From positions 1 through 35,260 of the forward strand of contig JAQYBZ010000033.1 in the NCBI GenBank assembly GCA_029003235.1: 35,260 nt of DNA. The letters run 5' to 3'. The notes below the pieces were generated by a model. The model did not search any database and was not told the DNA's origin. It worked only from the letters and a program-made list of their open reading frames with translations. Shown here one piece after another: positions 4,119-17,338 of this stretch; position 1 is the first letter of the stretch; every line of letters begins with the position of its first letter. The translations under genes were made by a program, and so were the position numbers. The DNA comes from Bacillota bacterium (GTDB taxonomy: Bacteria > Bacillota > Clostridia > Oscillospirales > Oscillospiraceae).

Positions 4119-4194
4119 TTAGATATTCTTGCAGGCAAACGCTCTTTGCGCGCCACAACCGCGAAAAAGGGCGCTTGGCCATAGGAGTGCGCCT

Positions 4195-5694
4195 ATGAAC
4201 CATGTACTGGATTACCTCAAGCGGCTGGAACGGCTGTGCCCGGACAAGACCGCCGTTGAGGATCGCCGGACGGCCTATACCTTCCGGCAGATGGGGGAGC
4301 TGGCCAGAATGCTGGCCGGGCATCCTGCGCTGGAGAACAAAAGAAGCTGTGCGGTGGGCGTCATGGCCGACCGCAGCGCCTCTACCGCCGTCTATTTTCT
4401 GGCGGCGCTGTTCAGCGGCAATTTTTATGTACCTGTAGATCCCCAGCTTCCGGAGAAGAAGCTGCAAACCATTGTGGCCGACGCGGGGATCGATTTGTTT
4501 TATACCGACGAGGAGAACAAGCAGCGTCTGCGGGACGTGGGATTTACGGGAACCTGCCTTTCCCTGACGGACAAGCCCTGCTGGCAGAGCGCTGACCGCA
4601 GCGGGGAACTGACGCCCCGCAGCCCGGCCTATATGGTCTACACCTCCGGCTCTACCGGTGTGCCCAAGGGGGTGCTGAAAAGCCACGGCGCCATTGTCAG
4701 CTTCATTGAGGCCTACACCGAGACCTTCCCCTTTGACGCCGACGATGTCATCGGCAACCAGACGCCCTTTTTCTTTGACGCCTCAGCCAAGGACTTCTAT
4801 CTCATGCTCAAGACCGGCGCTGCCATGGAGGTACTGCCCAAAGAGCTGTTTGCCATGCCGCCTATGCTCATTGACTATCTCAACAAGAAAAAGGTGACAT
4901 TCATCAGTTGGGTGCCCACGGCGCTGTCCATTGTGGCGCAGCTCAACACCTTTACGGAGATCCTGCCCACGACCCTGAAGCGGGTGTTTTTCGTGGGCGA
5001 GGTGATGCCGGTAAAGTACCTCAACAAGTGGATGGATGCCCTGCCCGGGCTGGAGTATGTGAATCTCTACGGCTCGTCGGAGATCGCGGGCGTCTGCTGC
5101 TATTATCCCGTCAAACAAAAGCTGGACGCCGCCCGGTCGCTGCCCATGGGCAAGCCTCTGCGCAACTGCCGGCTCTATCTCATGGACGGCGAGCGCGTCA
5201 TTACCCAGCCTCATATGCCGGGAGAGATTTATCTGGTCAGTCCGGCACTGGCGGAGGGCTATTACCACGATCCGGAAAAGACGGCGGCGAGCTTTATTCA
5301 GAAGGACTTCGGCGACGGCGTGGTGCGCCGGGCGTTCCGCTCCGGCGACATTGCACAGTATGACGAGGCGGGCAATCTGGTCTTTTCCGCCCGCCGGGAC
5401 GCCCAGATCAAGCATCTGGGCAACCGCATCGAGCTGGGGGAGATCGAGGCCGTGGCCAATTCTCTGGAGCAGCTTCAGCGCTGCTGCTGCCTGTACGACC
5501 AGAAAAAGCAGAAGATTGTCCTGTTTGCCCAGAGCGCTCCGGCGGCTTCCCCGGCGGACGCCAAAGCCATCCGCAGTCTGCTGCGGCCGCGTCTGTCGTC
5601 CTATATGCTGCCCAATAAAGTGGTGCTGCTGGAGCAGTGGCCGCTCAACGCCAACGGCAAAACCGACCGGCAGGCTTTGAAAGCCCTGCTGTGA
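4195..5694 (+). CDS. AMP-binding adenylation enzyme, DltA-like amino acid/acyl-carrier-protein ligase
   Basis: MNHVLDYLKRLERL start with RBS taggag; core motifs YTSGSTGVPKGV, GEVMP, GDIAQYDEAGNLVFSARRDAQIKHLGNRIELGEIE, NANGKTDRQAL. Confidence 0.88.
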   Translation: MNHVLDYLKRLERLCPDKTAVEDRRTAYTFRQMGELARMLAGHPALENKRSCAVGVMADRSASTAVYFLAALFSGNFYVPVDPQLPEKKLQTIVADAGIDLFYTDEENKQRLRDVGFTGTCLSLTDKPCWQSADRSGELTPRSPAYMVYTSGSTGVPKGVLKSHGAIVSFIEAYTETFPFDADDVIGNQTPFFFDASAKDFYLMLKTGAAMEVLPKELFAMPPMLIDYLNKKKVTFISWVPTALSIVAQLNTFTEILPTTLKRVFFVGEVMPVKYLNKWMDALPGLEYVNLYGSSEIAGVCCYYPVKQKLDAARSLPMGKPLRNCRLYLMDGERVITQPHMPGEIYLVSPALAEGYYHDPEKTAASFIQKDFGDGVVRRAFRSGDIAQYDEAGNLVFSARRDAQIKHLGNRIELGEIEAVANSLEQLQRCCCLYDQKKQKIVLFAQSAPAASPADAKAIRSLLRPRLSSYMLPNKVVLLEQWPLNANGKTDRQALKALL

Positions 5695-5744
5695 CCCCTT
5701 TGAGGCGGCGATTTACCGCAAAAACCTGTCAGGAGGAAAAGAAC

Positions 5745-5975
5745 TTGGAACAGTTGCTGGAAATTTTGGAAGAAATCAACCCCGATGTGGACTACGCCAC
5801 GGAGAAAAATCTCATCGACGGAAAGGTGCTGGACTCTTTCAGCATCGTCAACCTCATCATGGAAATCTCCGACACCTTTGACATTGAGATCAGCCCCAAG
5901 TGGATGAAAAACGAGAACTTCAACAGCGTGGAAGCCATGTGGAAGATGATCCAGACCATTCAGGAAGAAGAATAA
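5745..5975 (+). CDS. Acyl/aminoacyl carrier protein (DltC-like), TTG start
   Basis: RBS aggagg upstream of TTG; 'DGKVLDSFSIVNLIMEISDTFDIEI' with the DS(F) phosphopantetheine-site motif. Confidence 0.85.
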   Translation: MEQLLEILEEINPDVDYATEKNLIDGKVLDSFSIVNLIMEISDTFDIEISPKWMKNENFNSVEAMWKMIQTIQEEE

Positions 5976-5996
5976 TTCACCCAAAGGGGCGTATTT

Positions 5997-7607
5997 ATGT
6001 CCATTACATCATTCTCATTTTTGCTGTTTTTGGCGGTGCTGCTGGCAGTGTACTACCTGACGCCGAAAAAATGGCAGTGGGTGGTGCTTCTGTGCGCCAG
6101 CGCGGCGTTCTATCTGCTGAGCGGCGTCGAGGGCTTTGTGTTCGTCCTGCTGACCGCCGCCACGTCCTACGGCGCGGTGCGGTGGATGCAGGCGCTGGCC
6201 GACCGGCAGAAGGCCTATTTTGCCGCCAACCGGGGCGAACTGACCAGAGAAGAAAAGTCCGCCTTTAAGGCCGCCACCAAGAAGAAGCGCCGGACGATTC
6301 TGATTGTGACGCTGGTGCTGAACTTCGGTGTGCTGTGCTTTTTCAAGTATTTCCACTTCCTGTTCGCCCAGGTCAACGGCCTGCTGGGGCTGCTGGGACT
6401 GCCCCAGGGGGAGGATACCCTGCGGTTTCTGGTACCGCTGGGCATCTCCTTTTATACGTTTCAGACCATGGGCTATGTGGTGGATGTGTACTGGGGCAAT
6501 TGCCGGGCGGAGGGGAATTTTCTCAAGACCCTGCTGTTCGTCTCTTTCTTCCCCCAGATTACCCAGGGGCCCATCAGCGACTTCGAGCAGTTGTCCGCGG
6601 AACTGTTCACCGGCCACAGCTTCTGTTATGAAAACTACTCTCTGGGCGGCCAGCGCATGCTCTGGGGCTTTTTCAAAAAGATCGTCATTGCCGATCTGCT
6701 GGCGCCCTATGTGGGGGATATTTTTCAGAACTACGCCGCCTATTCCGGCGCTACGGTGATGGTGGGCGGGCTCATGTACTCCGTGCAGATCTACGCCGAT
6801 TTTTCCGGTTATATGGACATTATGTGCGGCCTGTGCCAGATGCTGGGCATCCGTCTGCGGGAGAACTTTGACCGTCCCTATTTTTCCAAATCCATTGCCG
6901 AATACTGGCGCAGATGGCACATCAGTTTGGGCGACTGGTTCAAAAAGTACATCTATTATCCCATTGCCATGGCCAAATGGAATCTGCGCATCGGGCAGAA
7001 GGCCAGAACCCATTTTGGCAAGACCCTGCCAGCTTCCATCGCTCTGGTGGCCGTGTGGCTCACCACCGGCCTTTGGCACGGGGCGAGCTGGGCGTACATC
7101 GCGTGGGGCGGCGTCAACGGCCTGTTCATCATCCTGTCTCTTTGGCTGGAGCCGGTGTACCAGCGCTGCAAGCACGCCCTGCATATCCGGGAGGCCTCCT
7201 TCTGGTGGCGGGCGTTTCAGACTGTGCGTACCTTTTTGCTGGTCACTTTCATCAAAGTCCTGCCGGAGGTGGGCACTCTGCGCGACGGGCTGGGCTTCTG
7301 GAAGCGCGCCTTTACCGCTTTCACGCTGCCGTCGTCCCTGCAGGAGCTTCTGCCCATGCAGAACAACCCCACCAGCGTGCTTTCGGGCTTTTGCAGCGAC
7401 CTGACCGGCAATCTGCTCATCATTGCCTTCGGTGTGTGCCTGATGTTTGCCGCAAGCCTGATCCAGCGCAAGACCCCCTGCCGTCAGGCCATGCAAAAAT
7501 GGCCTCGGCTGCTGCGATGGGCGTTCTTTGTGGCGCTGGCTGTGCTCACCGTCTGGGTAAAGGCCTATTCCGGCCTTTCGGGAGGGTTTATGTATGCACA
7601 ATTTTAG
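5997..7607 (+). CDS. MBOAT family O-acyltransferase (DltB/AlgI-like)
   Basis: 536 aa membrane protein with 'PLGISFYTFQTMGYVVDVY', 'FFPQITQGPISDFEQL', 'FSGYMDIMCGLCQMLGIRLRENFDRPYFSKSIAEYWRRWHISL', 'TGLWHGASWAYIAWGGVNG'. Confidence 0.93.
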   Translation: MSITSFSFLLFLAVLLAVYYLTPKKWQWVVLLCASAAFYLLSGVEGFVFVLLTAATSYGAVRWMQALADRQKAYFAANRGELTREEKSAFKAATKKKRRTILIVTLVLNFGVLCFFKYFHFLFAQVNGLLGLLGLPQGEDTLRFLVPLGISFYTFQTMGYVVDVYWGNCRAEGNFLKTLLFVSFFPQITQGPISDFEQLSAELFTGHSFCYENYSLGGQRMLWGFFKKIVIADLLAPYVGDIFQNYAAYSGATVMVGGLMYSVQIYADFSGYMDIMCGLCQMLGIRLRENFDRPYFSKSIAEYWRRWHISLGDWFKKYIYYPIAMAKWNLRIGQKARTHFGKTLPASIALVAVWLTTGLWHGASWAYIAWGGVNGLFIILSLWLEPVYQRCKHALHIREASFWWRAFQTVRTFLLVTFIKVLPEVGTLRDGLGFWKRAFTAFTLPSSLQELLPMQNNPTSVLSGFCSDLTGNLLIIAFGVCLMFAASLIQRKTPCRQAMQKWPRLLRWAFFVALAVLTVWVKAYSGLSGGFMYAQF

Positions 7608-8640
7608 AAGATGTATCATAAACACCGCCATTTTTCTGGTGCTGGTGCTGGTGCTGTGCCTGTTTGTACCTGTGTTTTACTTTGAAGGGGGCATTGCCGC
7701 CAACGCGGGGAAGAATTTTGACGTCAAAGAGCGCCAGAGCTATGCCGGAAGCGTGGACACGATCTTCAGCGGCGCGTCCCATGGCCTTTGCGGTTTCCGC
7801 CCGTCGGTCTATGACGAAGCCATGGACACCAGCTCCTATAATCTCTCCGGAAGCCTGCTGACCATGCAGGGGCGTTACACGCTGATACAGCAGGAGCTTT
7901 CCAGGAACCCGGTGGAAACGGTAATTCTGGAGGTCTCCTATAACGCCCTGTCCCGCACGGATACCACCCATTTTGAGGGCGACTACTATATGATCGGCCG
8001 CATTGACCGGCTGAGCGACCGCTTGAAATGGATCGGCAGCAGCTTTTCCTATGACGAATACTTTGACCTCTATGCCACGGCGCTGAAGGATGGCCGACCC
8101 TATCTGATTCACCGGATGAAAGGCCTGCTTGTGGGCGCCGGGGAGCAGGAGGACTGGAATCCGGACAGGGGCTTTCTGCCCTCAGACCCGAAAGACCTGA
8201 CGCTGAGTCAGGAAGCATACCGGCAGGAATATCATACCGTGCCCATGTCCACGGAGATCAACCAGGAAAATCTGGAGTATCTCAACAGGATTCTGAAGCT
8301 GTGCCAACAGAAGGGGGCGCGGGTGATCCTTGTGACCCTGCCTCTGTCCCAGCTTGCCCTCAACCGCTATGATAATCTGGAGACCGTGCGCCTGCAGTAC
8401 GCCCAATTGGCGCAGGAAAACGGCTGCCTGTTCTGGGACTTCAACTTGTATAAGGAACGGACGGCGCTGTTGAGCGATACCGACTGTTTTCGGGACATCA
8501 ACCATATGTCCACCAAGGGCGCGGGGGCGTTTACCCGGCTTCTTGCCGATACTCTGTCGGCCTATGACGGGGGACAGGACGTGAGCGGCTGGTTTTACGG
8601 CTCCTATGACGAGCTGCCCCGGGTAGGCGCGGACGGCTGA
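7594..8640 (+). CDS. Membrane-anchored SGNH/DltD-like protein
   Basis: N-terminal TM segment, 'FSGASHGLCGFRPSVYDEA' (Ser motif) and 'FRDINHMSTKGAGAFTRLL' (DxxH motif); overlaps the MBOAT ORF by 14 nt. Confidence 0.8.
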   Translation: MHNFRRCIINTAIFLVLVLVLCLFVPVFYFEGGIAANAGKNFDVKERQSYAGSVDTIFSGASHGLCGFRPSVYDEAMDTSSYNLSGSLLTMQGRYTLIQQELSRNPVETVILEVSYNALSRTDTTHFEGDYYMIGRIDRLSDRLKWIGSSFSYDEYFDLYATALKDGRPYLIHRMKGLLVGAGEQEDWNPDRGFLPSDPKDLTLSQEAYRQEYHTVPMSTEINQENLEYLNRILKLCQQKGARVILVTLPLSQLALNRYDNLETVRLQYAQLAQENGCLFWDFNLYKERTALLSDTDCFRDINHMSTKGAGAFTRLLADTLSAYDGGQDVSGWFYGSYDELPRVGADG

Positions 8641-8694: not shown

Positions 8695-8723
8695 TTGACA
8701 AACGTTTTTTCCGGTGCTATGAT
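8695..8723 (+). promoter_or_regulatory. Sigma-A-type promoter for the aro operon leader
   Basis: TTGACA-17 bp-TATGAT. Confidence 0.85.
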
Positions 8724-8751
8724 GAGAAAAATTGACAAAGGAGAACACAAA

Positions 8752-8811
8752 ATGTCCATGGTTCTGTCTTTTGCATACGATTACTACTTTTACTTTTATC
8801 ACAAAAAGTAA
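8752..8811 (+). CDS. Tyr/Phe-rich attenuator leader peptide MSMVLSFAYDYYFYFYHKK
   Basis: ATG with RBS AAAGGAG 8 nt upstream; 5 Tyr and 3 Phe in 19 codons; immediately upstream of an antiterminator/terminator pair and the aro operon. Confidence 0.85.
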   Translation: MSMVLSFAYDYYFYFYHKK

Positions 8812-8900
8812 AAGCGTTTTTGCTGCAAAAAGACATGACCGACGACCCGGATATGTGTGTTATGAGCTGCGCAGTAAAAACTGCGCGGCTCTTCTTTTTT
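8787..8900 (+). promoter_or_regulatory. Transcription attenuator of the aromatic operon (1:2 hairpin, antiterminator, terminator)
   Basis: CTTTTACTTTT (8787-8797)/AAAAGTAAAAG (8804-8814) hairpin; antiterminator 8816-8826 pairs with 8871-8881; terminator GAGCTGCGCAG-taaaaa-CTGCGCGGCTC (8864-8891) followed by ttcTTTTTT. Confidence 0.85.
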
Positions 8901-8997: not shown

Positions 8998-10005
8998 ATG
9001 ATCGCAGTATTAAAGCCCAGTGCAACCCAGCAGCAGATGGAGCACATCTGCCAGTGGATCCGCGCCCAAGGCGTGGAGGTTCACGTCTCCAAAGGACAGT
9101 ATCAGACAATTTTGGGACTCATCGGCGACACGTCGCGTATTGACATGGAGCTGCTGGAGAGTCTGGAGATCGTGGAGTCCGTCAAACGGATCTCCGAGCC
9201 TTTCAAGAGCGCCAACCGCAAGTTCCACCCCGACGACACGGTGGTGGAGATCACCCCGGACATCAAGCTGGGCGGCGGCCATTTCCAGATCATTGCAGGC
9301 CCCTGCAGCGTGGAGAGCCACGATCAGATCATCGGCATCGCTAAGAGCGTCAGTGCCTCCGGCGCGACCATGCTCCGCGGCGGCGCTTTCAAGCCCAGAA
9401 CCTCCCCCTATGATTTTCAGGGATTGAAAGCCGAGGGGCTGGAGCTGCTGCTGGAAGCAAAAAAAATCACGGGTATGCCCATCGTGACGGAGATCATGTC
9501 CGTAGAGGATCTGCCCCTGTTTGAAAACGTGGACGTTTTGCAGGTGGGCGCGCGGAATATGCAGAATTTTGACCTGCTCAAGCATCTGGGAGAGACCCGC
9601 AAGCCCATTCTGCTCAAGCGCGGACTGGCCAACACCCTGAAAGAGCTGCTCATGAGCGCTGAGTACATTATGGCCGGGGGCAACGAGAACGTGATTCTGT
9701 GCGAGCGGGGCATCCGCACCTTTGAGACCTACACCCGCAATACCCTGGATCTGTCCGCTGTTCCCATGCTGCGGGAGCTGACCCATCTGCCTATCGTCGT
9801 CGATCCCAGCCATGCCACAGGGACGGCGCGGCTGGTGGAGCCCATGGCACTGGCAGCGGCGGCAGCCGGCGCCGACGGCATTATGGTGGAGGTGCACAAC
9901 GACCCCATCCACGCCCTCTGCGACGGCGCCCAGTCCCTGACTCCGGCGCAGTTTGACAGCCTGGCGCAGAAGATTTTCAAGGTACGGAGGGCGGTGACGG
10001 AATGA
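8998..10005 (+). CDS. aroF: 3-deoxy-7-phosphoheptulonate (DAHP) synthase with N-terminal ferredoxin-like domain
   Basis: MIAVLKPSATQQQMEHICQWIRAQG...; 'IAGPCSVES', 'LRGGAFKPRTSPYDFQG', 'ILLKRGLANTLKELLMSAEYIMAGGNENVILCERGIRTFE', 'VDPSHATG'. Confidence 0.95.
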   Translation: MIAVLKPSATQQQMEHICQWIRAQGVEVHVSKGQYQTILGLIGDTSRIDMELLESLEIVESVKRISEPFKSANRKFHPDDTVVEITPDIKLGGGHFQIIAGPCSVESHDQIIGIAKSVSASGATMLRGGAFKPRTSPYDFQGLKAEGLELLLEAKKITGMPIVTEIMSVEDLPLFENVDVLQVGARNMQNFDLLKHLGETRKPILLKRGLANTLKELLMSAEYIMAGGNENVILCERGIRTFETYTRNTLDLSAVPMLRELTHLPIVVDPSHATGTARLVEPMALAAAAAGADGIMVEVHNDPIHALCDGAQSLTPAQFDSLAQKIFKVRRAVTE

Positions 10006-10832
10006 CAGTAGGAATCGTAGGACTGGGACTGATCGGCGGCTCTCTGGCCAAGGCCTACACGGAAGCCGGGCACCGGGTGCTGGGCGAAGACCGGGACGAG
10101 AAAATTCTGGGCTTTGCCATGCTCTCCGGGGCGGTGGAGGCGGCGCTGACGCCGCAGAATCTGGAACAGTGCCAGTTGATCCTCATTGCTCTTTACCCCA
10201 GGGCGGCCATTGAATGGCTGGAGCAGCACAAAGACCGCATCGCCAAACAGACGCTGGTCATGGACTGCTGCGGTACCAAGCGGCAGGTCTGCGCGGCCTG
10301 CTTCCCCATGGCGGAGGCGTCCGGCTTTACCTTTGTGGGCGGCCACCCCATGGCGGGCAAGCACCAGTCCGGCTTCAAGTACAGCCGGGCAAGCCTGTTC
10401 CGGGATGCATCCATGGTTATTGTGCCGCCGGCGGACGATATTGATCTGCTGGATCGGGTCAAGCAGGCCCTTGCCCCTCTGGGACTGGGACGGCTCACCG
10501 TGACCACGGCGGAGATTCACGACCGCATGATCGCCTTTACCTCCCAGATGGCTCATGTGGTGTCCAACGCCTTTATCAAAAGTCCCACGGCCAAAGCCCA
10601 TAAGGGCTTTTCCGCAGGCAGCTATAAGGATTTCACCCGTGTGGCGCAGCTCAACGCCGAAATGTGGACGGAGCTGTTTCTGGAGAACCGGGACAATCTG
10701 ACCCGGGAGCTGGATACGCTCATCGACGCCCTTTCGGCCTACCGCGGCGCTCTGCAGGCCAACGACGCGTCGGCACTGCAGGCGCTGCTGGAAGAGGGCA
10801 GCCAATGTAAGCTGGAGGTGGACGGCAGATGA
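10002..10832 (+). CDS. tyrA: Prephenate dehydrogenase
   Basis: 'VGIVGLGLIGGSLAKAY' NAD-binding motif; 'GGHPMAGKHQSGF'; ATGA overlap with aroF. Confidence 0.92.
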   Translation: MTVGIVGLGLIGGSLAKAYTEAGHRVLGEDRDEKILGFAMLSGAVEAALTPQNLEQCQLILIALYPRAAIEWLEQHKDRIAKQTLVMDCCGTKRQVCAACFPMAEASGFTFVGGHPMAGKHQSGFKYSRASLFRDASMVIVPPADDIDLLDRVKQALAPLGLGRLTVTTAEIHDRMIAFTSQMAHVVSNAFIKSPTAKAHKGFSAGSYKDFTRVAQLNAEMWTELFLENRDNLTRELDTLIDALSAYRGALQANDASALQALLEEGSQCKLEVDGR

Positions 10833-11881
10833 AAACCATCCATGTCAACGCCTCCCGGCAGTACGATGTGTGCATCCGGCGGGGCAGCCTTGCCCGGTGC
10901 GGCGGGGACATCCGCGCCGTTAACGGCGGCACGGCCGCCGCGCTGGTTACGGATCGCACGGTGGACGGTCTCTACGGGCAGACCGTGGAGCAATCCCTTC
11001 AGGCGGCCGGATACCGGACGGTGAAATTTATCATCGAGCCGGGAGAGCAGTCGAAGAACGGTGAAAATTTTCTTAAATTACTCAATTTTCTGGCGGAAAA
11101 CCAACTGACCCGCAGCGACCTTGTGGTGGCGCTGGGGGGCGGCGTAGTGGGTGATCTGGCGGGCTTTGCCGCCGCCAGCTATCTGCGGGGGGTGGCGCTG
11201 GTACAGCTCCCCACCACCCTGCTTGCCATGGTGGATTCTTCCGTGGGAGGCAAGACGGCCATTGATCTGCCCGCCGGCAAAAATCTGGCCGGCGCCTTTT
11301 ACCAGCCGTCGCTGGTGCTTTGCGACCCGGACGCGCTGGATTCTCTGCCGGAGGAGATCTTCTCCGACGGCTGCGCCGAGGTCATCAAATACGGCATGAT
11401 CGCCGACGGCGACCTGCTCACCGCCCTGAAAACGCCCCTGCGCCGGCAGGCGGAAGCGGTCATTGCCCGCTGCGTGGAGATCAAGCGCGACGTGGTGGCG
11501 CAGGACGAGTTTGACACGGGAATGCGGCAGCTTCTGAATTTTGGCCATACCATCGGCCACGGGGTAGAGCTGTGCAGTGGCTACACCATATCCCACGGGA
11601 AAGCGGTGGCCATGGGCATGGCTGCCGTGACCGTTGCCGCCGAGCGCAGCGAGCTGTGCCCAGACGGCCTGTACTGGGAGCTGCACGACCTGCTGGTGCA
11701 GTACGGCCTGCCCACCCAACTGCCCTACGGGGCACAGCAGCTTCTGCAGGCGGCCTACCGTGACAAAAAACGCAGCGGCGATGAGATCCATCTGGTTGTC
11801 CCTGCCCTGCGGGGGCGCTGCGTGATCCGGAATCTGACCATGGAGGAGTTCGCGGTGCTGCTGCAGCTCTGCGACAGATAA
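10829..11881 (+). CDS. aroB: 3-dehydroquinate synthase
   Basis: 'EPGEQSKN', 'ALGGGVVGDLAGFAAASYLRGVALVQLPTTLLAMVDSSVGGKTAIDLPAGKN', 'FGHTIGHGVE'; ATGA overlap. Confidence 0.96.
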   Translation: MKTIHVNASRQYDVCIRRGSLARCGGDIRAVNGGTAAALVTDRTVDGLYGQTVEQSLQAAGYRTVKFIIEPGEQSKNGENFLKLLNFLAENQLTRSDLVVALGGGVVGDLAGFAAASYLRGVALVQLPTTLLAMVDSSVGGKTAIDLPAGKNLAGAFYQPSLVLCDPDALDSLPEEIFSDGCAEVIKYGMIADGDLLTALKTPLRRQAEAVIARCVEIKRDVVAQDEFDTGMRQLLNFGHTIGHGVELCSGYTISHGKAVAMGMAAVTVAAERSELCPDGLYWELHDLLVQYGLPTQLPYGAQQLLQAAYRDKKRSGDEIHLVVPALRGRCVIRNLTMEEFAVLLQLCDR

Positions 11882-11882
11882 T

Positions 11883-13142
11883 ATGAGAGCGATCATTGGC
11901 AATACGCCCCTGCACGGGCAGGTGGAGGCCATTTCCTCCAAGTCCTGGCTCCATCGGGCGCTGATCTGCGCGGCCATGGGGGAGCAGCCTACCCGCCTGC
12001 GCTGGCGAAGCTGCGGCGAGGACGTGGCGGCCACCATTCGGTGCCTGGAGGCGCTGGGGGCGCGGCTTACGCCCCAAACAGACGGCCTGTCCGTCTGCGG
12101 GGGGAAGACCGTTTCCCCGGCGGTGCTGGACTGCGGCGAAAGCGGCAGCACCTTGCGCTTTCTGCTGCCTTTGGCAGGGGCTTTGGGTGTGCAGGCGGCG
12201 TTTTACGCCTCCGGGCGGCTGCCCCAGCGTCCTTTGAGTCCCCTGTATGAGCAGCTCGGGAGCCACGGCTATGCCCTGTCAGAGCAGGGCGTCGTGCCCC
12301 TGCGGGGAGAGGGACGGCTCAGGGGAGGGGTCTATCGTCTGCCGGGCAACGTGTCGTCCCAGTATGTGTCGGGGCTTTTGATGGCGCTGCCCCTGCTGGT
12401 TGACGATAGCGAAATTATGTTAACTTCTAAATTGGAATCCCGCCCCTATGTAGATCTGACACTGGATCTTCTGCGGCGTTTCGGCGTGGAGATCCGGGAA
12501 ACGGGCGACGGCTTCTTCGTGCCCGGCGGTCAGCGCCCCCGGACGCCGGGGGAGCTGACGGCGGAGGGAGACTGGTCCAATGCGGCATTCTGGCTTTGCG
12601 CCGGGGCTTTGTCTGCCGGGGGCGTCACGGTCAGCGGTCTGGATCCGGCGTCCCGTCAGGGCGACCGGGCGGTGTGCGATATTCTGTCCCGCTTCGGGGC
12701 GGTGCTCACCGTGGACGGCTGCCGGATAAGCGTCCGCCGGGGCAATCTGCGGGGCATCGACGTGGACTGCGCCCAGATTCCCGATCTGCTGCCGGTGCTG
12801 GCGGCGGTGGCGGCCGGGGCGGAGGGAACCACCCGGTTTTATCACGCCCAGCGCCTGCGCTTAACGGAACGCGACCGCCTGAAAACCGTGGTGCAGACCT
12901 TGTCGGCGCTGGGAGCGCGGGTGCAGGAGCAGCCCGACGGCCTGACGGTGGAGGGATGCTCCTGTCTGGAGGGCGGCTGCGTTTCGGGACATAACGACCA
13001 CCGCATCGTCATGATGGCGGCAGTGGCGGCGGCGCTTTGCAAGCGGCCGGTATGTATCGAGCAGGCGCAGGCGGTGGACAAGTCCTATCCCGACTTTTTC
13101 CGGGATGCCGCCCTGCTTTCGGCCAATGTGGAGCTGCAATAG
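11883..13142 (+). CDS. aroA: 3-phosphoshikimate 1-carboxyvinyltransferase (EPSP synthase)
   Basis: 'SSKSWLHRALICAAMG', 'DCGESGSTLRFLLPLAGALG', 'PGNVSSQYVSGLLMALPLL', 'GHNDHRIVMMAAVAA'. Confidence 0.95.
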   Translation: MRAIIGNTPLHGQVEAISSKSWLHRALICAAMGEQPTRLRWRSCGEDVAATIRCLEALGARLTPQTDGLSVCGGKTVSPAVLDCGESGSTLRFLLPLAGALGVQAAFYASGRLPQRPLSPLYEQLGSHGYALSEQGVVPLRGEGRLRGGVYRLPGNVSSQYVSGLLMALPLLVDDSEIMLTSKLESRPYVDLTLDLLRRFGVEIRETGDGFFVPGGQRPRTPGELTAEGDWSNAAFWLCAGALSAGGVTVSGLDPASRQGDRAVCDILSRFGAVLTVDGCRISVRRGNLRGIDVDCAQIPDLLPVLAAVAAGAEGTTRFYHAQRLRLTERDRLKTVVQTLSALGARVQEQPDGLTVEGCSCLEGGCVSGHNDHRIVMMAAVAAALCKRPVCIEQAQAVDKSYPDFFRDAALLSANVELQ

Positions 13143-13151
13143 GAGGCGCTT

Positions 13152-14225
13152 ATGGCAAACAGCTACGGTACCCATCTTCGATTGAAAATTTACGGCGAGT
13201 CCCACGCTCCGGCCATCGGCATGACGCTGGAAAATTTCCCGGCGGGCTTTGCAGTGGACATGGACGCTCTGGCTGCATTTTTAGCCCGGCGGGCGCCGGG
13301 CAACGCCCCCTGGGCGACACCCCGCAAGGAGGCGGACGCGCCCCGTTTTCTCTCCGGCCTGACCGGGGGCGTAACGGACGGCGGCTGCCTGCGGGCGGAG
13401 ATCTATAACACCAACGTGCGGCCCGGCGACTATGAGACCTCCATTCCCAGGCCGGGGCACGCCGACTACCCGGCCTATGTAAAATACGGGCATATCGCCA
13501 GCGGCGGCGGCCGCTTCTCCGGCAGAATGACCGCGCCTTTGTGCATTGCAGGAGGCATCTGCCTGCAATATCTGCGCAGCCGGGGCATCGCCGTGGGCGC
13601 CCATGCCCTGGCCATCGGCGGCGTCTGCGACGAGGTGTTCGACCCCATGGCGCCCAGGCTTTCCGCCCTTGAGGGAAAGGCTTTCCCCGTGCTGGATGAC
13701 GCCGCAGGGGAGAAAATGCAGCAAGCCATTGCGGCTGCCCGGGCGGAGGGCGACTCCGTGGGCGGTATCATCGAGTGCGCCGTCACCGGCCTGCCTGTGG
13801 GGCTGGGGGAGCATATGTTCGACGGCATGGAAAACCGGATCGCCGCCATTGTCTTCGCCATTCCGGCGGTGAAAGGCGTGGACTTCGGCGCGGGGTTTTC
13901 CAGCGCTTATCTGCGCGGCTCGGAAAACAACGATCCCTATGCCTTTGATGGCGGCGCGGTGCGGCTCCTGCGCAACCGCAGCGGCGGTGTGCTGGGCGGG
14001 ATGACCACGGGTATGCCCCTGATCTTTCAGGCGGCGGTAAAGCCCACCCCGTCCATTGCCAAAGCCCAGCAAAGCGTCGATCTGAAGACCGGCCAAAGCG
14101 TTGAATTGAAGATTCGCGGCAGACATGACCCGTGCATTGTGCCCCGCGCAGTCCCCGTGGTGGAGGCTGCCGCCGCCCTTGCCGTGTGCGACGCGCTGCT
14201 GCAGGAGGAGGAAGAGAAAGAATGA
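13152..14225 (+). CDS. aroC: Chorismate synthase
   Basis: 'MANSYGTHLRLKIYGESHAPAIG', 'GRFSGRMTAPLCIAGGICLQYL', 'GRHDPCIVPRAVPVVEAAAALAVCDALL'. Confidence 0.95.
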   Translation: MANSYGTHLRLKIYGESHAPAIGMTLENFPAGFAVDMDALAAFLARRAPGNAPWATPRKEADAPRFLSGLTGGVTDGGCLRAEIYNTNVRPGDYETSIPRPGHADYPAYVKYGHIASGGGRFSGRMTAPLCIAGGICLQYLRSRGIAVGAHALAIGGVCDEVFDPMAPRLSALEGKAFPVLDDAAGEKMQQAIAAARAEGDSVGGIIECAVTGLPVGLGEHMFDGMENRIAAIVFAIPAVKGVDFGAGFSSAYLRGSENNDPYAFDGGAVRLLRNRSGGVLGGMTTGMPLIFQAAVKPTPSIAKAQQSVDLKTGQSVELKIRGRHDPCIVPRAVPVVEAAAALAVCDALLQEEEEKE

Positions 14226-15364
14226 ATCTGGAAGAACTGCGAAAACAAATGGACAGCGCCGACGCGGAGCTGCTGAAGCAATTTGAGCGGCGCATGGACG
14301 TGGCGGCGCAGATCGCCGAATACAAGCGGGACAACGGCCTGCCTGTACTGGACGCCGGGAGGGAGCGCCAGAAGTTGGCGGAATTGACCGGTATGGCGCA
14401 GGAGGACAAAAAGCAGTATGTGAGCGTGCTGTATGCGCTGCTGTTTGAGCTGAGCCGTTCGGCACAGCAGCGGCTGCTGAATCATGGCACCGCCCTCACG
14501 GCGCAGATCGCCGCCGCCATTGAAAACACCCCCAAGCTGTTTCCCACCTATCCCGCCGTGGCCTGTCAGGGGGTGGAGGGCGCCTATTCCCAGCAGGCCT
14601 GCGACAAGCTGTTCCGCACCCCGTCCATCCTCTATTTCCACAATTTCCAGGGAGTTTTTGCCGCCATTGACAGCGGCATGTGCCAATACGGCGTCCTGCC
14701 CGTGGAAAACAGCACGGCAGGCTCTGTCAATGAGATCTATGATCTGATGATGGAGTACCGCTTCCATATTGTACGCAGCACCCGCCTGAAGGTGGATCAC
14801 AATTTACTGGCCAAGGCCGGCGTCAAGGTGGAAAACATCCGCCGCATCTATTCCCATGCCCAGGCCATCAGCCAGTGCGCCGGATTCCTCAAGGGCTTGA
14901 AAAATGTAGAGATTATCCCCTGTGAGAACACGGCTGCCGCCGCCAAAATGGTGGCGGAGTCCGACCGCACGGATATTGCGGCGCTGTCCTCCCGGAACTG
15001 CTGCGGCCTGTACGGGCTGGAGTGCATTGCCGAGTCCGTGCAGGACAAGGGCAACAATTACACCCGCTTTATCTGTATCGCCAAGGATCTGCAGATCTAT
15101 CCCGGTGCGGACAAGACCAGTATCATGATGGAGATCCCCAACAAGCCCGGCGCGCTGTATCAGGTGCTTTCCCGGTTCTATGCGCTGGACATCAACCTGA
15201 CCAAGCTGGAGAGCCGCCCCATTCCCGACCGGGATTTCGAGTTTATGTTCTACTTTGATCTGGAAACGCCGGTCTATTCCCCACAGCTATTGCAGCTTCT
15301 GTCCGAGCTGGAGCAGGCCGGCACCAGATTCCGTTATCTGGGCAGCTACAGCGAGATCGTTTAG
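14222..15364 (+). CDS. pheA: Bifunctional chorismate mutase/prephenate dehydratase with ACT domain
   Basis: MNLEELRKQMDSADAELLKQFERRMDVAAQIAEYK (CM), 'VACQGVEGAYSQQACDKLF' and 'VLPVENSTAGSVNEIYDLM' (PDT), 'KTSIMMEIPNKPGALYQVL...ESRP' (ACT). Confidence 0.95.
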   Translation: MNLEELRKQMDSADAELLKQFERRMDVAAQIAEYKRDNGLPVLDAGRERQKLAELTGMAQEDKKQYVSVLYALLFELSRSAQQRLLNHGTALTAQIAAAIENTPKLFPTYPAVACQGVEGAYSQQACDKLFRTPSILYFHNFQGVFAAIDSGMCQYGVLPVENSTAGSVNEIYDLMMEYRFHIVRSTRLKVDHNLLAKAGVKVENIRRIYSHAQAISQCAGFLKGLKNVEIIPCENTAAAAKMVAESDRTDIAALSSRNCCGLYGLECIAESVQDKGNNYTRFICIAKDLQIYPGADKTSIMMEIPNKPGALYQVLSRFYALDINLTKLESRPIPDRDFEFMFYFDLETPVYSPQLLQLLSELEQAGTRFRYLGSYSEIV

Positions 15365-15376
15365 GAGGGATGGAGG

Positions 15377-16594
15377 ATGCTCCGTTGCGGTTTGCTGGGT
15401 CGGCGGCTGGGTCACAGCTATTCTCCCGCCATTCACGCCATGCTGGGCGACTATGAATACGGTCTGTACGAAAAAGAGCCGGAGGCGCTGGAGGAATTTC
15501 TGCGCCATGGCGGGCTGGACGGCCTGAACGTTACCATTCCCTATAAGAAAACGGTGATGCAGTGGTGCGACGCGCTCTCTGACGAAGCGCTGCGCATCGG
15601 CAGCGTCAATACCCTTACGGTGAAGGACGGGAAAATCACCGGATATAATACCGACTGCGACGGTTTTGCGTGGCTTTTGCAGGCAAGCGGCTTTGACCCG
15701 GCGGGGAAGAAGGCACTGGTGCTGGGCAGCGGCGGCGCGTCTCTGGCGGTACAGGATGTGCTGAGGAATCGCGGCGCGCAGGTGGTGGTTGTCTCCCGCA
15801 CCGGGGAGGACAACTACGGCAATCTGGCGCGGCATCGGGATGCGGCGCTCCTTGTCAATGCCACGCCTGTGGGTATGTATCCCCATACGGGCGTCAGTCC
15901 GGTGGCGGTGGAGGACTTTCCTCAGTGCCGGGCGGTGTTGGATCTGATCTATAACCCGGCCAAAACCCGGCTTCTGCTGGATGCGGAGAAGCTGGGCATC
16001 CCAGCCTTCAACGGCCTGTCCATGCTGGTGGCACAGGCGGCGCGGGCTTCGGCGCTGTTTACGGGCGCGCCTGTCCCGGCGCAGAGAATCGGACAGATCA
16101 CGGAAGCCATCGCCCGACGGGAGAGAAATATCATTCTCATCGGCATGCCGGGCTGCGGCAAGACCTCTGTGGCAAAGGCGCTTGCAGCTCAGACCGGCCG
16201 GGAATTTCTGGACTGCGACGCCTGCCTGGAGCAGGCCGCTGGCAAGTCCATCCCGGAAATTTTTGCCCGGGACGGGGAAGCGGCCTTTCGCCGGCTGGAG
16301 ACTCAAACCCTGCAAAGCCTGTGCTGCCAGTCGGGCAAGGTAATCGCCACCGGGGGCGGCGTCGTGACCCGGCCGGAAAACCGGGACGTCCTGCGCCAGA
16401 ACGGAGTGCTGGTCTTTTTGCAGCGCCCTCTGGAAGAGCTGCAGGTCAGCGGACGCCCCCTGTCGGAGCAAAAGGGCGTGGCCGCGCTGGCGGAGCAGCG
16501 CCTGCCTCTGTACCGGGCGTGGAGCGACTGCGTCGTAGATGTATGCGGCGCCCAGGCCACGGCAAATCTGATTCGGAAGGAGCTGGAGCGATGA
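15377..16594 (+). CDS. aroE/aroK: Shikimate dehydrogenase-shikimate kinase fusion
   Basis: N-terminal AroE ('LGHSYSPAIHAMLG', 'GLNVTIPYKKTV', 'VLGSGGASLAV', 'VNATPVGMYP') continuous with C-terminal AroK ('IILIGMPGCGKTSVAKALA', 'FLDCDA', 'VIATGGGVVTRPENR'). Confidence 0.95.
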   Translation: MLRCGLLGRRLGHSYSPAIHAMLGDYEYGLYEKEPEALEEFLRHGGLDGLNVTIPYKKTVMQWCDALSDEALRIGSVNTLTVKDGKITGYNTDCDGFAWLLQASGFDPAGKKALVLGSGGASLAVQDVLRNRGAQVVVVSRTGEDNYGNLARHRDAALLVNATPVGMYPHTGVSPVAVEDFPQCRAVLDLIYNPAKTRLLLDAEKLGIPAFNGLSMLVAQAARASALFTGAPVPAQRIGQITEAIARRERNIILIGMPGCGKTSVAKALAAQTGREFLDCDACLEQAAGKSIPEIFARDGEAAFRRLETQTLQSLCCQSGKVIATGGGVVTRPENRDVLRQNGVLVFLQRPLEELQVSGRPLSEQKGVAALAEQRLPLYRAWSDCVVDVCGAQATANLIRKELER

Positions 16595-17028
16595 ACATCC
16601 TGGTGATCAACGGACCGAATCTGAATCTTCTGGGTGTCCGGGAGCCGGACATTTACGGCAAAAACACCTATGAAGAGCTGGTGGAGCTGATCCGCCGCCA
16701 CTGTCAGGCGCGGGGGATCGGGGTCACCTTTTTCCAGTCCAACCATGAGGGCGCCATTGTAGACGAGATTCAGAGCGCCTACGGAAAGCAGGACGGATTG
16801 GTCATCAACCCCGCAGCCTACACCCACACCAGCATTGCCATCCCCGACGCCATTAAGGCCGTGGGGCTTCCGGCGGTGGAGGTGCATATTTCCGACATCC
16901 AAGCCCGGGAAGCCTACCGCAGCCATTCCTTTGCCTCCGAGGCCTGTATCGCCACCATCTGCGGCAGAGGCTTTCAGGGGTATCTGGATGCCGTCGACCT
17001 GCTGGAAGAACGGCTCAAAACGCAGTGA
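16591..17028 (+). CDS. aroQ: Type II 3-dehydroquinate dehydratase
   Basis: [23 protein letters not shown]..., '[15 protein letters not shown]', '[17 protein letters not shown]', 'VEVHISD'; ATGA overlap. Confidence 0.96.
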   Translation: [145 protein letters not shown]

Positions 17029-17084: not shown

Positions 17085-17136
17085 GCCGCGCCCTGACGAA
17101 AAACAGAAAAAATATGAAAAAAAGAAGAAAAAATTC

Positions 17137-17165: not shown

Positions 17166-17210
17166 ATACGAGCGCGCGAAATGGATTCCCTGCGCGCAAA
17201 TTGCGATGAA

Positions 17211-17338
17211 GCAGGAGATTGCGCCGAAAGGCGGTAACTTCTGCGGAGTATGTCCGGTCATCGGGCGGCTGAGAGTATCTGATCCCAGCGTATATCGCTG
17301 AGGCAGGATTCGGCCGGCAAACGTCGGCCATTTTTCTT
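17211..17338 (+). promoter_or_regulatory. Structured S10 operon leader with internal terminator-like hairpin
   Basis: GAAA-capped hairpin 17211-17244; CAGCG-tatat-CGCTG 17286-17300; GGCCGGC-aaac-GTCGGCC 17312-17329 followed by aTTTTTCTT. Confidence 0.65.

Follow-up and report, generated by a model that had tools for sequence, protein, structure and literature searches.

A probable leader-peptide attenuator with tyrosine and phenylalanine codons upstream of an aroF operon in Clostridia

In the pheA and pheST attenuators of enterobacteria, a leader peptide with Phe codons is combined with mutually exclusive antiterminator and terminator structures. The control of aromatic amino acid biosynthesis in Firmicutes is usually attributed to T-boxes, TRAP and protein regulators. 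Leader peptides reported from this phylum include the His leader peptides of hisZ and hisS in bacilli (PMC2965389), the authors of which stated that no earlier leader-peptide systems were known beyond Proteobacteria and Actinobacteria, and a Leu-rich attenuator peptide of ilv in Staphylococcus aureus (PMC5794164). Among published motifs, uORFC-13-1 comes closest; probably an attenuator with a Phe uORF, it is located 5' of aroF in Acholeplasma and in environmental sequences and was described from 24 sequences of Acholeplasma and unknown organisms (PMC8632094). A search of the openly accessible literature returned nothing about Tyr/Phe leaders of Clostridia.

We have analysed a stretch of 35,260 nucleotides (the window; contig JAQYBZ010000033.1 of assembly GCA_029003235.1) from a gut bacterium of the Oscillospiraceae, for which a first-pass annotation had proposed a ribosome-stalling attenuator at positions 8695-8900. 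On the computed anatomy of this leader, its conservation and covariation, its folding logic and the match between codons and pathway, it is very probably a classical translation-coupled transcription attenuator in which a Tyr/Phe leader peptide controls the aroF operon. The mechanism as such is classical; new are its clade-wide distribution in Clostridia, the joint reading of Tyr and Phe codons and the re-coding to Trp.

The leader and its operon in the window

Inspection of the sequence confirmed that all elements assigned to 8695-8900 are present at those coordinates, including the promoter, the ribosome binding site and the 19-codon ORF with its 5 Tyr and 3 Phe codons. Positions below are those of the window, and all features of the leader and the operon are on the + strand. 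The promoter is of the sigma-70 type (8695-8723; TTGACA-17-TATGAT with an extended -10 TG, 11 of 12 consensus bases) and is the sole promoter-like site in the segment 8600-9100. The leader ORF (8752-8811; ATG at 8752, TAA at 8809-8811) encodes MSMVLSFAYDYYFYFYHKK and is preceded by the Shine-Dalgarno sequence AAAGGAG (8738-8744), 7 nt 5' of the ATG. Its sensor codons, Y-D-Y-Y-F-Y-F-Y, are located at 8776-8799. An ORF with an ATG, a Shine-Dalgarno sequence and 8 aromatic residues per 12 codons was found in none of 5000 dinucleotide shuffles, for which the maximum was 6, and the comparison of the leader RNA folding with shuffles yielded a z of -8.2.

The leader hairpin (helix 1:2; 8787-8814) has its arms at 8787-8797 and 8804-8814, as had been claimed; its P in the free RNA is 0.99. 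Antiterminator segment 2, GTTTTTGCTGC (8816-8826), pairs with segment 3, GCAGTAAAAAC (8871-8881), which consists of the end of the terminator 5' arm, the loop and the first base of the 3' arm. The 11 bp given for this antiterminator are present as 10 Watson-Crick pairs and one G-U. The intrinsic terminator (helix 3:4; 8864-8900, dG -21.9) has its stem at 8864-8891 with a T tract, TTCTTTTTT, directly after; the annotation was right about its position and its T tract, while the 11 bp of the stem can also be counted as 12. In the window alone, the 2:3 duplex was no better than in shuffles (p about 0.2), and its support comes from the relatives.

We also identified an outer stem that is absent from the first-pass annotation and conserved among relatives. 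Its 5' arm (8744-8775) covers the leader start codon and its 3' arm (8824-8861) is located in the spacer before the terminator, with folding, permutation and shuffles as evidence: the duplex was estimated to -27.8 kcal/mol, the permutation z was -13.8 for 66 leaders and the Stouffer score against shuffles was -13. We infer that the outer stem stabilizes the off state of the free RNA and restricts re-initiation, possibly as a lock at the leader start codon; it could also re-form around a stalled ribosome.

The operon downstream consists of aroF (8998-10005; DAHP synthase with a ferredoxin-like domain, PF00793 and PF18152), tyrA (10002-10832; prephenate dehydrogenase, PF02153 and PF20463), aroB (10829-11881; PF01761), aroA (11883-13142; EPSP synthase, PF00275), aroC (13152-14225; chorismate synthase, PF01264), pheA (14222-15364; chorismate mutase-prephenate dehydratase-ACT, PF01817, PF00800 and PF01842), an aroE-aroK fusion (15377-16594; shikimate dehydrogenase-kinase, PF08501 and PF01202) and aroQ (16591-17028; type II dehydroquinase, PF01220). 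These eight genes are tightly packed, with 4-nt overlaps or gaps of at most 12 nt, and their Pfam domains cover every step between DAHP and the Phe/Tyr precursors, in agreement with the eight-gene pathway of the annotation. The trpA gene was not found in the organism's own assembly (95% complete), consistent with the presence of Tyr and Phe codons and the absence of Trp codons in the leader.

The aroF gene was absent from all 23 genomes of the same genus that were searched. The possibility of a misbinned contig, raised by these congeners, was rejected because rplB is single-copy and 87-90% identical to rplB in the nine same-genus genomes carrying it. In the segment 4129-17128, nucleotide synteny with the sister species starts only at 17104-17128, just past aroQ, which together with the lack of aroF in the congeners indicates that either this genome acquired the operon and its attenuator or the sisters lost them. 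Directly 3' of the operon is an S10-Clostridia ribosomal protein leader (17198-17271; RF03136). The region 4129-8640 looks like a D-alanylation (dlt)-type cassette: besides an AMP-binding/adenylation-type gene, it encodes an MBOAT acyltransferase, a DUF1574-like protein and what is probably a carrier protein.

Conservation and covariation among relatives

AroF relatives were collected from whole genomes and GTDB species genomes, which yielded 107 distinct loci. Homologous leaders, strictly defined as an ORF with an ATG and a Shine-Dalgarno sequence and at least 6 aromatic residues per 12 codons within 330 nt 5' of aroF, were present at 70 of these, whereas such an ORF was present in only 3 of the 3102 control windows taken at these loci, one of the 3 being a true leader before a pheA-aroF operon (L042). 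Eleven of 13 minus-strand loci were included in the strict set; additional loci had leaders that failed just the strict start or Shine-Dalgarno rule, for example the minus-strand locus L016, which passed loosely only. Among the named carriers are Angelakisella massiliensis, Papillibacter cinnamivorans, Bittarella massiliensis and Clostridium ganghwense. As in the window, where the terminator at 8864-8900 separates the ORF from the first gene, a terminator was located 3' of the aromatic run in 69 of the 70 loci, with a median gap of 66 nt, and terminators of -15 kcal/mol or lower were found in 64 of the 70 as compared to 28 of 300 controls.

The aromatic runs consist of 35% Phe and 28% Tyr. In the set of 67 distinct leaders, 64 contained both Phe and Tyr and 9 contained any Trp, so that, as in the window, the short ORF is rich in codons for the products of the pathway. 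Per 12 codons, the leader frame had a mean of 7.5 F+Y; the two alternative frames had 1.9 and 2.1, and nucleotide-shuffled sequences 3.1. The runs made use of the synonymous codons TTT/TTC and TAT/TAC. The frame-specific enrichment and the synonymous codon usage show that selection acts on the codons and that the runs do not merely follow from U-rich RNA. The first-pass proposal had been staked on conservation of the aromatic codon run and of the alternative pairing in relatives, and with respect to the run it survived.

The same 67 leaders bear on the nature of the signal. A short peptide followed by a terminator is compatible with sensing of tRNA charging as well as of free Tyr/Phe, the latter through a nascent peptide that arrests in the ribosome tunnel in a TnaC-like manner. 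TnaC-type sensors induce upon amino acid excess, which is the reverse of what a biosynthetic operon requires, and the leaders share no fixed arrest motif: Phe and Tyr replace each other freely, and the runs differ in length. We consider sensing by nascent-peptide arrest to be very unlikely.

The alternative pairings were examined with a permutation test in which each species' own pairing was compared with pairings permuted among species (20,000 permutations). For the 67 leaders, the native 2:3 pairing had an energy of -14.5 kcal/mol versus -10.3 kcal/mol for permuted pairings (z -12.8), and the native 1:2 pairing had -12.2 kcal/mol versus -8.2 kcal/mol (z -12.5); neither was matched in any of the permutations. 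Three control pairings yielded z values of -3.4, -1.5 and +1.1, the first of which represents a slight excess for the pre-terminator control. Shuffles that preserve composition agreed, with Stouffer scores of -16.1 for 1:2 and -15.9 for 2:3. On the MAFFT alignment A3, 90% of the cells in the terminator and the leader hairpin (helix 1) were paired, with 70 double changes versus 23 in shuffled data, and both sides had changed in 10 of the 12 pairs of the terminator helix. A column count of the antiterminator in fixed register was weak on the same alignment because the register shifts among species, which is why the per-species duplex permutation was used. Judged from these sequence comparisons, covariation has preserved both helix 1:2 and helix 2:3 across species, and the conserved antiterminator shares bases with the terminator; the first-pass proposal thus held for the pairing too.

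We trained a covariance model, R1, on 21 aroF leaders. It detected loci outside the training set just 5' of aroF, with E-values down to 6e-18, and 48 of 199 genomes from the order contained a match, so that the covariance search suggested in the annotation did recover the leader in relatives. The best 30 hits included 26 before aroF and 3 before trpB, the tryptophan synthase beta gene. The three trpB leaders (L134, L136 and L138) have the same RNA architecture and encode MKNANCIAKYWYFYFTQVAR, MNASNHVAFIWWRFTVSNGKVDL and MRNVSAKYWRYFNFTFYGFAVGK, with Trp codons in all three, indicating that the sensor codons track the pathway. Locus L161 may represent a further case. One R1 hit (L141) contained no convincing leader and was taken as a chance match.

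A translated ORF with a good ribosome binding site may co-occur with a terminator by chance. In that case there would be no ribosome-coupled switch: the ORF would encode a small protein with a function of its own, and read-through control at the terminator would be of the ordinary kind. However, the peptide is not conserved outside the F/Y run, whereas the three pairings covary, and the three leaders before trpB that were found with the same RNA model carry Trp. We consider this explanation very unlikely as well.

Ribosome position and the proposed switch

We folded the leader in stages, assuming that the ribosome footprint reaches 14 nt from the A site. For transcripts ending at 8881-8884, an A site placed anywhere within Y11-H17 gave the antiterminator of the window a P of 0.99. 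Placing the ribosome at the stop codon gave an antiterminator P of 0.21 that dropped to 0.00, and without a ribosome hairpin 1:2 had a P of 0.99 and the antiterminator 0.00. The terminator won in every state once the full-length RNA was folded at equilibrium, even with a stalled ribosome, and the switch must therefore be kinetic. For 57 leaders, each read on its correct strand, the median upstream pairing of the terminator 5' arm was 0.74 with a stalled ribosome versus 0.29 with the ribosome at the stop codon (Wilcoxon p=2e-10), and the difference was at least 0.2 in the expected direction for 84% of them. In staged folding, the position of the ribosome thus decides between antiterminator and terminator, and the stalling geometry that had been outlined for the window works there and in most relatives.

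Under the attenuator model, RNA polymerase would start near 8730 and a ribosome would translate the 19-codon leader. If tRNA-Tyr or tRNA-Phe were poorly charged, the ribosome would stall on YDYYFYFY and mask hairpin 1:2, leaving 8816-8826 free to capture 8871-8881 before 8882-8891 is synthesized. Formation of the antiterminator would block the terminator and allow transcription of aroF-tyrA-aroB-aroA-aroC-pheA-aroEK-aroQ. At normal charging, the ribosome would reach the stop codon and cover 8816-8826, leading to termination; alternatively, it would depart, and hairpin 1:2 and the outer stem would form, also with termination as the outcome. The model presumes coupling of polymerase and ribosome in the aro leader and a change of termination efficiency in vivo. 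The signal is probably charged tRNA rather than free amino acid acting through nascent-chain arrest, and shortage of either Tyr or Phe alone would be expected to be enough to trigger the switch.

T-boxes and comparison with known systems

The least probable explanation is that a T-box or another known RNA (a TRAP site or a riboswitch) controls the operon and that the ORF is incidental: although T-boxes were found at valS, ileS, pheS, alaS and cysE/cysS in the same genome and before trpB in 7 of 20 other relatives scanned, a T-box was located before aroF at just one of 20 scanned loci (L094), and no Rfam family, T-box RF00230 included, matched the aro leader in the window at the gathering threshold or any of nine leader loci at E<=1. 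Likewise, Phe_leader and the other amino acid leaders in Rfam had no covariance-model match in the window or in the nine loci. Three of the six T-box matches in the genome were below the gathering score, pheS included; finding T-boxes elsewhere in the genome indicates that the search works there. The element before pheS (L148, C43) is T-box-like, with 75.7 bits. The contrast that the annotation had drawn with T-box usage in Firmicutes is fair, but the organism itself also carries T-boxes, with pheS among the genes concerned. Leader-peptide and T-box control thus coexist in this genome, and the organism appears to use both for the sensing of Phe.

The data indicate that many Clostridia, gut lineages included, rely on ribosome stalling for aroF operons and on T-boxes for aminoacyl-tRNA synthetases. 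It seems rather likely that the leaders represent a widespread, uncatalogued family of Clostridia attenuators, characterized by joint Tyr/Phe reading for a whole pathway, coexistence with T-boxes, a conserved outer stem over the start codon that perhaps permits only one round of translation, and Trp re-coding at trpB. The more than 60 distinct leaders are ready for use in annotation as a new RNA family. A leader's codons also report the amino acids that limit the species in question, as when Tyr/Phe occur but not Trp in a genome that yielded no trpA, and this aids the prediction of auxotrophy and cross-feeding in gut communities.

Compared to known systems, the aro leader shares with the hisZ/hisS leaders (PMC2965389) and the S. 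aureus ilv leader (PMC5794164) the use of leader-peptide attenuation in Firmicutes, but differs in amino acid, gene and taxon. T-boxes of Firmicutes likewise act on a terminator in response to tRNA charging, but bind the tRNA directly, without translation. The enterobacterial pheA and pheST attenuators (Rfam Phe_leader) also have Phe codons in a leader peptide and exclusive antiterminator and terminator structures, whereas the aro leader, with no sequence or covariance match to them, has mixed Tyr and Phe codons and controls the entire operon from shikimate to Phe/Tyr. The likeness to uORFC-13-1, compared by its text description only, extends to the location 5' of aroF, the promoter, the ribosome binding site, a uORF with a Phe-coding U run and an adjacent terminator, for which attenuation has been proposed; that text mentions Phe alone and no antiterminator (PMC8632094), whereas the aro leader is found in Clostridia, reads Tyr and Phe together and combines helices 1:2, 2:3 and 3:4 with an outer stem.
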